Translations under genes and position numbers: made by a program | Shown here: piece after piece, positions 470 to 51,639 of the stretch | Layout of the letters: each line of letters opens with the position of its first letter | Position numbering within the stretch: the stretch's first letter is position 1 | Notes under the pieces: model-generated | Databases searched by the model: none | What the model was told of the DNA's origin: nothing | The model's input: only the letters and a program-made list of their open reading frames with translations | Assembly (NCBI GenBank): GCA_013178305.1 | Contig: JABLXB010000008.1 | Span: 1 to 64,000, forward strand | Reading direction: 5' to 3' | DNA length: 64,000 nucleotides | From: Bacillota bacterium | GTDB lineage: Bacteria > Bacillota > Sulfobacillia > JABLXB01

Positions 470-3470
<3,001 letters not shown>

Positions 3471-3584
3471 ATTACGATAGGTCGGCAACTAATACCTGGC
3501 GGTATCTCAGCGCTGTGCGGAAGCAAGGTGGCGGAGCAAGGAAGAATGTGCTCCGGTGGATGACATGTGAATAGGGAATAGAAT

Positions 3585-3702
3585 TCCCGGTGGAGATAGC
3601 GGAGGAGTCACACCCGATCCCATTCCGAACTCGGTCGTTAAGCCCTCCAGCGCCGATGGTACTTGGGGCGAAAGCCCCTGGGAGAGTAGGTCACTGCCGG
3701 GA
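3585..3702 (+). rRNA. 5S ribosomal RNA
   Basis: A 118-nt 5S RNA. The terminal stem TCCCGG pairs with CCGGGA, and the conserved blocks CACACCCGATCCCATTCCGA and GAGAGTAGGTCACTGCC are present. It follows 23S by about 115 nt and is the last RNA of the operon. Confidence 0.97.
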
Positions 3703-3712
3703 GCTAAATCGA

Positions 3713-3742
3713 AGCCCAGCCCAAGAGGACTGGGCTCCTTCA
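3713..3742 (+). terminator. Rho-independent terminator of the rRNA operon
   Basis: A perfect 7-bp stem AGCCCAG (3713-3719) and CTGGGCT (3730-3736) with a 10-nt loop, followed by CCTTCATTTCC, lies 10 nt after 5S. It closes the rRNA operon and faces the 3' end of the convergent HD-GYP gene, so it may work in both directions. Confidence 0.8.
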
Positions 3743-27941: not shown

Positions 27942-27995
27942 TTTATTTTGCGTTGAGACCGCGCACGTCGGCGTGCCGGGGCGCGAGTAAGCGCG

Positions 27996-28343
27996 TCAGG
28001 GTGTGCCCACGTCGCTGCCTGATTCCTCGCTCATGCCTGGGCCCCAGCCGCCACCCCAGCCCATTCCCGGGTCCCAGCCACCGCCCCAGCCCATACCTGG
28101 GCCCCAGCCACCGCCAGGCGTACCGCCCCAGCCCATACCTGGGCCCCAGCCACCGCCAGGCGTACCACCCCAGCCCATACCTGGGCCCCAGCCACCGCCA
28201 GGTGTACCACCCCACCATGGACCCCACGGACGCCACCACCACGGGGGCATCGACCTCCGCCACCACCACGGGGGCATAGGCCTCCGCCGCCACCACGGAC
28301 CCCACGGGCTCCAGCCCGGCTGTCCAAAACCACCCTCGGGCAT
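27996..28343 (-). CDS. Gly/Trp/Pro-rich tandem repeat protein of unknown function
   Basis: A 115-aa protein not recognised as any family. After a short N-terminus (MPEGGFGQPGW) comes a Trp/Arg/Pro stretch with PPWWW twice, then three perfect copies of a 14-residue unit (GGTPGGGWGPGMGW), then shorter degenerate copies (GGGWDPGMGW, GGGWGPGM) and an acidic tail. There is no signal peptide or membrane helix. The start is well supported: GGGAGG lies 8 nt before ATG 28343. CATATTAT upstream (28384-28377 on the minus strand) fits the CATANNNT pattern of sigma-E/K -10 boxes, which would suit a spore surface protein, but no matching -35 was found. It is downstream of the membrane protein gene on the same strand. 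Confidence 0.7.
   Translation of the reverse strand: MPEGGFGQPGWSPWGPWWRRRPMPPWWWRRSMPPWWWRPWGPWWGGTPGGGWGPGMGWGGTPGGGWGPGMGWGGTPGGGWGPGMGWGGGWDPGMGWGGGWGPGMSEESGSDVGTP
28084..28209. repeat. Three tandem 42-bp repeats inside the Gly/Trp-rich gene
   Basis: Units at 28084-28125, 28126-28167 and 28168-28209 are nearly identical, differing at one or two bases (for example GGCGTA to GGTGTA). Shorter related units precede them at 28034-28083. The 42-bp period keeps the frame, giving three copies of a 14-residue repeat. Confidence 0.95.
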
Positions 28344-28463
28344 TTCCGGATCCTCCCTTCGCAGCACGGTTGTTACATAATATGTAGATCCGGTACCGTT
28401 GGGGACTTCACCTTGCCGCGAGATTCTGTCGGTTCCCGGATGCTCAATCATAGAGGCGGGGTA

Positions 28464-28919
28464 TTACGGCCGTTCACTGTCCCGGTTCATATTGGGTGCG
28501 GTTCTGGCGGACGTCAACGTCCCTCCCAGGACGCTTCCGATGATAGGAAGGAGCATTGCCGCCGCCAGCCATGTGCGGCGAGTCAATGCGCTGCGGTTTA
28601 CCAGGTTTATGAAGAGAAACAGGACGTCTGTTAATGCGGGGCCCCTGCCGCGGTACATGTAATAGACCATCAACCACCAGCCACCCGTGAGTCCGAGCAC
28701 CAGAAGCGCTCCAGGCAGCCAGAGGAGTAGGTGGGGCAACTCCCGGGAGACCATTCGCCCGGAAGCGAACCCCAGCGTAAGCAAGATAAGCCCGGAAACG
28801 GTCATATGGACATAATGCGAATTGCTGTGAACGAAGAACCAGAAGTAGGTCAAGTACAGGAACGGGCTGACAATAAGGCACTTGGCCACCGCAACCAGGA
28901 CAGCAAGAGTTGCCTTCAA
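28464..28919 (-). CDS. Small integral membrane protein of unknown function
   Basis: A 151-aa protein with about four hydrophobic segments: residues 3-27 (LAVLVAVAKCLIVSPFLYL), 38-55, 63-88 (LLLWLPGALLVLGLTGGWWL) and 118-135. The ends are charged. No family motif is visible. TTG 28919 follows GGGAGTGG by 6 nt. Codon use and GC are lower than in the neighbouring housekeeping genes. It lies 120 nt upstream of the Gly/Trp repeat gene on the same strand, so the two may be co-expressed. Confidence 0.72.
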   Translation of the reverse strand: MKATLAVLVAVAKCLIVSPFLYLTYFWFFVHSNSHYVHMTVSGLILLTLGFASGRMVSRELPHLLLWLPGALLVLGLTGGWWLMVYYMYRGRGPALTDVLFLFINLVNRSALTRRTWLAAAMLLPIIGSVLGGTLTSARTAPNMNRDSERP

Positions 28920-29349
28920 GTGCTACCACTCCCGTGTGCAGATTAGAATCGCTTGTTAGCGTGAAGGAAAGAGAAGCTCTGTGAAGAATTCCGCGTTGGT
29001 GGATCTGGCCACCTGCAGTTTTCCGCTGAGATACCGCACCTTCTCCGCTCAATTGTGGTGTTTCGAGGGCAAGAGTTGTCGTAGTGTGGGAGTTCGAACT
29101 GGCTGGATACCTGGGGAAGATCGGCAGGTTTGTATCCTACTAACTAGACGAATGAAAGCGGCCCTCGGTTCCCTTTATGTGGTTGAACAGGGCACATCCT
29201 CCAATTCGTCGTGGAGCGTTCATGCTCTACAACATTCATGAATGCCCGGGTGCGCCCCGGTGGCAGGATTTTTTTGGAGCGCTAAGGAAATACTTGTCCC
29301 GCAAATTACAAAAGAATAACCTGGGTTGTCCGGGTTCGGTATGGCGAGG
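28920..29349. other. Low-GC gap upstream of tuf1
   Basis: About 430 bases between the divergent membrane protein gene and tuf1, clearly poorer in G+C than the rest. A plus-strand frame of 86 codons (28981-29241) has a weak ribosome site and no recognisable product, and I do not call it. A terminator-like hairpin with seven Ts follows directly at 29243. TTGTCC (29294-29299) and TAACCT (29317-29322), 17 nt apart, are a weak candidate promoter for tuf1. Confidence 0.6.
29243..29276 (+). terminator. Orphan Rho-independent terminator-like hairpin
   Basis: TGCC-CGGG on the left pairs with CCCG-GT-GGCA on the right (a two-base bulge) around TGCGC, and is followed within 2 nt by TTTTTTT. No confirmed plus-strand gene ends here. 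It either closes a small unannotated transcript or acts as an attenuator in a tuf1 leader. Confidence 0.55.
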
Positions 29350-30572
29350 GGAGGATTTTCGAGATGGGCAAGAAGAGGTTTGAGAGGACGAAGCCGCACG
29401 TCAACGTAGGAACGATTGGACATATCGACCACGGGAAGACGACGCTGACGGCGTGCATCACGAAGGTTTTGGCGGGTGCAGGATTTGCTGAGTACACGCC
29501 GTTCGACCAGATAGACAAGGCGCCGGAGGAGAAGGCGCGGGGGATCACGATCGCGACTGCGCACGTTGAGTACGAGACTGCGGCGAGGCACTACGCGCAC
29601 GTGGACTGCCCGGGTCACGCGGACTACATCAAGAACATGATTACTGGTGCGGCGCAGATGGACGGAGCGATCCTGGTGGTGAGCGCGGCTGACGGTCCGA
29701 TGCCGCAGACGAGGGAGCACATACTGCTTGCGCACCAGGTAGGCGTACCCACGATGGTGGTATTTTTGAACAAGGCTGACATGGTGGACGACCCCGAGCT
29801 ATTGGAGCTTGTAGAGATTGAAGTGAGGGAGCTTCTGACGAAGTACCAGTTCCCCGGGGACGAGACTCCTGTGATAGCGGGTTCAGCGCTCAAGGCTCTG
29901 GAATGCGGATGTGGTAAGAGGGATTGTCCGTGGTGCGGGAAGATATGGGAGTTGATGGATGCGGTAGACAGGTACATTCCGACTCCTGTGAGGGATACTG
30001 AGAAGCCGTTCCTGATGGCGATAGAGGACGTATTCACGATAACTGGTCGTGGGACAGTTGTGACGGGCAGGATAGAGCGCGGCCAGGTGAAGGTAGGGGA
30101 CGAGATCGAGATAGTTGGGTTCATAGAGAGGCCGAAGAAGACTGTAGTGACGGGTGTAGAGATGTTCCGGAAGCTGCTGGACCAGGGACAGGCTGGGGAC
30201 AACGTTGGGTGTTTGCTCCGGGGTATAGATAAGGACGAGGTATTCCGTGGGATGGTGCTGGCGAAGCCGGCGTCGATAAAGCCACACACGAAGTTCGACG
30301 CCGAGGTGTATGTGCTGACGAAGGAAGAAGGGGGGCGGCACACGCCGTTTTTCAACGGATACAGGCCGCAGTTCTACTTCAGGACGACGGACGTGACGGG
30401 CGTGGTTAAGTTGCCCGACGGAGTGGAGATGGTGATGCCTGGAGACAACATCCGGATGGAGCTCGAGTTGATCGCGCCGATAGCGATGGAGGAAGGCTTG
30501 AGGTTCGCGATCCGCGAGGGCGGCAGGACGGTTGGAGCGGGGGTTGTCACCAAGATCAACGAGTGACCAGCC
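29350..30572 (+). repeat. Direct repeat, copy 1 (tuf1)
   Basis: This 1,223-bp segment appears identical to 50417-51639. The match begins 14 nt before the tuf ATG, at the ribosome site, and ends 6 nt after the stop. It lies 21,067 bp from the second copy in the same orientation. Confidence 0.9.
29364..30566 (+). CDS. tuf: Elongation factor Tu (copy 1)
   Basis: GTPase that delivers aminoacyl-tRNA to the ribosome, 400 aa. G motifs are GHIDHGKT (near 19-26), DCPGH near 84 and NKADM near 139, and domains II and III are complete. Cysteines 181, 183, 188 and 191 ([11 protein letters not shown]) form a cluster near the end of the G domain where the B. subtilis and E. coli proteins have a shorter acidic stretch. 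Codon choice (GCG, GGG, ACG, GTG) differs from the C-ending codons of nearby ribosomal genes. GGGGAGGA precedes ATG. The position before rpmG-secE-nusG is common in other phyla. Protein and gene match copy 2. Confidence 0.97.
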
Positions 30573-50416: not shown

Positions 50417-51639
50417 GGAGGATTTTCGAGATGGGCAAGAAGAGGTTTGAGAGGACGAAGCCGCACGTCAACGTAGGAACGATTGGACATATCGACCACG
50501 GGAAGACGACGCTGACGGCGTGCATCACGAAGGTTTTGGCGGGTGCAGGATTTGCTGAGTACACGCCGTTCGACCAGATAGACAAGGCGCCGGAGGAGAA
50601 GGCGCGGGGGATCACGATCGCGACTGCGCACGTTGAGTACGAGACTGCGGCGAGGCACTACGCGCACGTGGACTGCCCGGGTCACGCGGACTACATCAAG
50701 AACATGATTACTGGTGCGGCGCAGATGGACGGAGCGATCCTGGTGGTGAGCGCGGCTGACGGTCCGATGCCGCAGACGAGGGAGCACATACTGCTTGCGC
50801 ACCAGGTAGGCGTACCCACGATGGTGGTATTTTTGAACAAGGCTGACATGGTGGACGACCCCGAGCTATTGGAGCTTGTAGAGATTGAAGTGAGGGAGCT
50901 TCTGACGAAGTACCAGTTCCCCGGGGACGAGACTCCTGTGATAGCGGGTTCAGCGCTCAAGGCTCTGGAATGCGGATGTGGTAAGAGGGATTGTCCGTGG
51001 TGCGGGAAGATATGGGAGTTGATGGATGCGGTAGACAGGTACATTCCGACTCCTGTGAGGGATACTGAGAAGCCGTTCCTGATGGCGATAGAGGACGTAT
51101 TCACGATAACTGGTCGTGGGACAGTTGTGACGGGCAGGATAGAGCGCGGCCAGGTGAAGGTAGGGGACGAGATCGAGATAGTTGGGTTCATAGAGAGGCC
51201 GAAGAAGACTGTAGTGACGGGTGTAGAGATGTTCCGGAAGCTGCTGGACCAGGGACAGGCTGGGGACAACGTTGGGTGTTTGCTCCGGGGTATAGATAAG
51301 GACGAGGTATTCCGTGGGATGGTGCTGGCGAAGCCGGCGTCGATAAAGCCACACACGAAGTTCGACGCCGAGGTGTATGTGCTGACGAAGGAAGAAGGGG
51401 GGCGGCACACGCCGTTTTTCAACGGATACAGGCCGCAGTTCTACTTCAGGACGACGGACGTGACGGGCGTGGTTAAGTTGCCCGACGGAGTGGAGATGGT
51501 GATGCCTGGAGACAACATCCGGATGGAGCTCGAGTTGATCGCGCCGATAGCGATGGAGGAAGGCTTGAGGTTCGCGATCCGCGAGGGCGGCAGGACGGTT
51601 GGAGCGGGGGTTGTCACCAAGATCAACGAGTGACCAGCC
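50417..51639 (+). repeat. Direct repeat, copy 2 (tuf2)
   Basis: This segment appears identical to 29350-30572 over 1,223 bp, from the ribosome site GGAGGA to 6 nt after the stop. Upstream and downstream sequences then diverge at once. Confidence 0.9.
50431..51633 (+). CDS. tuf: Elongation factor Tu (copy 2)
   Basis: A 400-aa EF-Tu that appears identical to copy 1 in protein and gene, including the cysteine cluster 181/183/188/191. This copy is in the classical str-operon place after fusA and before rpsJ. AAGGAGGA precedes ATG by 8 nt. Its codon use differs from fusA and rpsJ on either side. Confidence 0.97.

Follow-up and report, generated by a model that had tools for sequence, protein, structure and literature searches.

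A tryptophan-rich repeat reading frame between tRNA-Thr and tuf: a probable orphan gene and candidate for a disordered, self-associating protein in a predicted spore-former

Evenly spaced aromatic residues among glycine and proline act as stickers in low-complexity proteins, and orphan proteins made of repeats are common. CotB and CotG of Bacillus subtilis carry no signal peptide and are produced in the mother cell; the Trp-rich peptides indolicidin and tritrpticin are 13-residue animal host-defence peptides that are cut from a secreted precursor. The repeats of CotB are rich in serine and phosphorylated by a kinase (PMC7821199), and the class of Trp/Pro/Arg-rich antimicrobial peptides has been described as well (PMC6017362, PMC4790384). 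Our search of the literature on Gly/Trp-rich or low-complexity coat proteins returned nothing relevant to a Gly/Trp protein as described here.

The open reading frame (ORF) analysed here lies on the minus strand of a window of 64,000 nucleotides, by which we mean the whole stretch of DNA under analysis, from an uncultured Bacillota bacterium of the class Sulfobacillia. A first-pass annotation had drawn attention to a 115-aa Gly/Trp-rich protein with a strong ribosome site and an unusual density of tryptophan, and sequence and translation bear out its position, strand and length as well as the GGGAGG and its distance from the start codon (Table 1). An alternative in-frame start at ATG 28451 would give 151 aa, and it has no ribosome site and a poor codon usage. 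The protein contains 42 Gly, 22 Trp, 20 Pro, 8 Met and 6 Arg and is devoid of C, K, H, I, L, A, N and Y; its 77 C-terminal residues hold neither Lys nor Arg. With a Trp share of 19% and up to 16 Trp within 60 residues, compared to at most 7 in any other unrelated frame of the window, its Trp density is indeed exceptional.

Table 1. Features of the Trp-rich gene and its surroundings (positions in the window).
Feature	Position	Strand	Remarks
tRNA-Thr(GGT)-to-tuf stretch	27942-29363		1.42 kb long; the seven relatives in which both ends were found have about 113-270 bp
Trp/Gly-rich ORF	27996-28343	-	115 aa; start ATG 28341-28343, stop 27996-27998 (translation)
GGGW[GD]PGMGW, one full and one partial copy	28032-28085	-	repeat and codon comparison
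Three perfect 14-residue copies of GGTPGGGWGPGMGW	28086-28211	-	42 bp each; TRF and codons
Three copies of a 9-codon repeat of PWW[WR]RRxMP type, cationic Trp/Pro/Arg block	28218-28298	-	TRF 27-bp array and codons
Ribosome site GGGAGG	28352-28357 (CCTCCC on plus strand)	-	8 nt before ATG 28343
13-bp perfect palindrome TACATATTATGTA, contains CATATTAT	28374-28386		16 nt upstream of ribosome site
Gene of 151-aa hydrophobic protein; start codon TTG, which aligns to the ATG in a relative	28464-28919	-	upstream, same strand

The three perfect 14-residue repeats reported at first pass are present with nearly identical DNA (97% matches between the 42-bp copies in TRF), but two 10-codon and three 9-codon units had been overlooked. 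The 10-codon units are further copies of the last ten residues of the 14-residue unit, and with the 9-, 10- and 14-codon units taken together nearly the whole protein is repetitive. AlphaFold gave a model without a fold (pLDDT 51.6, pTM 0.14), which, as the run used a single sequence and a lone orphan sequence often models badly, is consistent with an intrinsically disordered protein.

Protein search of 153 further genomes from the class and of 397 others sampled from the phylum yielded no homologue, and the same holds for genome contigs, viral contigs and plasmids. A protein search of 101 relatives returned only the protein's own copy or composition-driven fragments; the weak matches follow composition throughout and many of them have internal stops. 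A paralogue in the own genome was not seen either, where the protein search finds only this locus and TGGTGGTGG exceeds its reversed control only slightly. Neither Pfam, NCBIfam and PHROGs nor the PDB hold a family match, in line with the first-pass statement that no family was recognised, and known spore-coat families in Pfam, NCBIfam and PHROGs showed no sequence match. Since confirmation by tblastn was possibly blunted by low-complexity masking, the genome contigs were also scanned with a DNA pattern for WGPGMGW, which gave 25 loci with no homologue and some convergent tails. WGPGMGW occurs inside stretches rich in Gly, Trp, Met and Pro in proteins of Acidobacteria (L133, L135), Acetobacter (L122, L125) and Bacteroidota (L126, L127). 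Those proteins are longer, otherwise unrelated and contain 2-5% Trp in total, and the tract forms one segment or the C-terminal tail of them, whereas here it makes up the entire protein; judged from these sequences convergence is more likely than descent. The two Acidobacteria proteins carry the motif in tandem or near-tandem Gly/Trp/Met runs (L133, 2522-2614, minus; L135, 966-986, plus), and these are independent expansions of one motif.

The Trp-rich gene is convergent to tRNA-Thr(GGT) and belongs to some 1.1-1.3 kb of additional DNA found between this tRNA and tuf. A search for Gly/Trp repeat homologues near tuf in relatives, as proposed at first pass, found none there, and the sigma-H/tRNA/tuf junction was not recovered in either of two same-family genome assemblies. 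Integration carried by the tRNA was considered and rejected, as the sequence up to tuf showed no second copy, 10 bases or longer, of the 3' end of tRNA-Thr, and an RNA element was rejected because the Rfam matches are four tRNAs only. The window holds two tuf genes on the plus strand (29364-30566 and 50431-51633) with 100% identical proteins, which is what gene conversion would lead one to expect.

Apart from the Trp-rich gene, the extra DNA holds a single gene-like ORF. It encodes the 151-aa hydrophobic protein, from its sequence probably a multi-spanning membrane protein, which has no known family in Pfam, NCBIfam or PHROGs. Homologues were found in G001 (60% identity) and G058 (45%), and the own genome G000 has a further copy that is broken; among the genomes covered the small family thus occurs only in G000 (two copies, of which a TGA interrupts one), G001 (two) and G058. 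A conserved partnership with the Trp-rich gene was rejected: none of these relatives has a Trp-rich ORF beside it, and the two genes are therefore neighbours and not a conserved pair. This bears on the idea that the Trp-rich product is a membrane-active peptide rich in Trp, Arg and Pro with the adjacent membrane protein as its partner or immunity protein. Residues 17-44 (WWRRRPMPPWWWRRSMPPWWWRPWGPWW) form a cationic Trp-Pro-Arg block like that of indolicidin and tritrpticin, and the membrane-protein gene lies upstream on the same strand; however, its relatives lack a neighbour of this kind in both G001 and G058, neither a leader nor a secretion signal or processing site was seen, and most of the protein is Gly-rich and not cationic. 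We consider a membrane-active peptide very improbable.

Whether the minus frame is coding at all was judged against chance and against the opposite strand. Its length is no argument, because open frames of 115 codons or more arise in 72% of the mononucleotide shuffles of the GC-rich region, and across most of the ORF region five out of six reading frames are open. Both observations suit a reading without any functional gene, in which a slippage-prone, low-complexity GC-rich tract in the lineage-specific DNA between tRNA-Thr and tuf is open in most frames by chance; the missing homologues in the searched genomes of class and phylum, the position in extra DNA and an ordinary-to-poor codon usage fit it as well. 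The conditional codon usage of the minus ORF is neutral (0.012 nats per codon) and lies below all but one of 34 training frames of the window, 33 of which score 0.06-0.32, the frames having been chosen mechanically by length without curation so that some are probably not genes. Against a chance frame stand the good ribosome site at the correct spacing and the differences between the repeat copies, which fall on third codon positions in seven of eight events (p about 0.003) or, without the partial unit, in four of five (p=0.045), p-values that are optimistic because the copies are not independent. Moreover, TGN and ATN codons of the minus frame are always TGG and ATG, while the adjacent GGN, CCN and ACN codons vary. 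We regard the absence of a functional gene as rather unlikely.

The first-pass annotation had named conservation in favour of the Pro-rich frame on the plus strand as evidence against its reading. This frame, in which the true gene would run from GTG 28003 to 28380 and encode 125 aa with PGPQPPPGVPPQPI repeats followed by HHGPHGRHHHGG, is open and has a slightly better codon score (0.066 vs 0.012 nats per codon), and since its third positions coincide with those of the minus frame the synonymous differences between repeat copies alone suit both. However, its GTG start has no clear ribosome site, and its mostly four-fold degenerate Pro, Arg, Ser and Leu codons always end in C where they lie opposite Trp or Met, whereas the others vary: C is found at 24 of 24 such sites vs 12 of 56 elsewhere (nominal p 8e-12) or, counting only one 14-mer copy and the N-terminal half, at 12 of 12 vs 7 of 24 (p 5e-5), values again optimistic for non-independent copies. 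Thus Trp and Met are held and not Pro. Since no homologue was found, the case for the minus frame comes from this comparison between repeat copies, which is good evidence but falls short of proof, and a plus-strand gene appears highly improbable. Taken together, the minus-strand ORF is probably a real, lineage-specific low-complexity orphan gene.

Upstream of the gene CATATTAT is present on the minus strand (28377-28384), as stated in the first-pass annotation, but its interpretation as a sporulation -10 box is weak: no -35 element was seen by eye upstream of it, the full sigma-K box CATANNNTA is not matched there and the window holds 31 occurrences of CATANNNT. A sigma-70 promoter or a terminator was not found at the gene, and from its sequence the palindrome is a possible operator. 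The genome encodes Spo0A (156 bits over a cut-off of 25) and a sigma-K gene whose two halves flank a recombinase, and, judged on gene content alone, the organism is a spore-former. The sigma-K halves (L155, G000:C3:262500-267500; 1037-3719) are about 1.96 kb apart and have the residues NEI in common at the break, and the gap is filled by a serine recombinase of 559 aa with Pfam matches to Resolvase, Recombinase and Zn_ribbon_recom. By its sequence this insertion is a skin-like element of minimal size, which would have to be excised when the cell sporulates.

For the product we propose, with a probability of roughly 45%, a young, lineage-restricted real gene for a disordered, self-associating structural protein of the sticker-and-spacer type, most likely in a layer of the spore coat. 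The gene would have grown by tandem duplication of its 9-, 10- and 14-codon units, and its product, lacking a signal peptide, would be synthesised in the cytoplasm. Trp and also Arg side chains would serve as stickers and Gly and Pro as spacers, so that aromatic stacking and cation-pi contacts might lead to self-association into a structural layer or condensate, whose likeliest site in a spore-former would be the coat, built from the mother-cell side. As evenly spaced aromatics among Gly and Pro act as stickers, self-association would be the likeliest physical property of the protein. The first-pass annotation had suggested a surface, coat or phase-separating protein. A secreted surface protein is disfavoured, because the N-terminus MPEGGFGQPGWSPWG shows by eye no hydrophobic signal or signal peptide, and the coat is plausible given Spo0A and the sigma-K gene. 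With these genes and the lack of a signal peptide, a coat component made in the mother cell would be the most likely specific role, a step that draws only on the organism and the missing signal peptide and that, taken on its own, is speculative and rather doubtful. Quite unlikely is the further-reaching possibility of a newborn gene whose product, a sticker-and-spacer protein of almost nothing but Gly, Trp and Pro, forms a condensate or spore-coat polymer based on Trp, a type of material of which we know no described bacterial example.

If the product is made, this bacterium would provide a naturally occurring extreme of the Trp-driven low-complexity protein and a candidate for a young gene grown by duplication of codon units, and aromatic self-association could be tested on it in a simple way; if it is not made, the locus shows that GC-rich slippage tracts yield tempting open frames. 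To our knowledge a Gly/Trp composition is not known for repeat-rich spore coat proteins. In comparison to the described systems, the protein shares the PWWWRR-type cationic aromatic block with indolicidin and tritrpticin, but here it comes without a leader and is attached to a repeat domain rich in Gly. With 19% Trp it also differs from the WGPGMGW proteins of other phyla. CotB and CotG, as they have been described, are likewise repetitive (PMC7821199), with serine-rich repeats in CotB (PMC7821199) in contrast to the Gly/Trp repeats found here.
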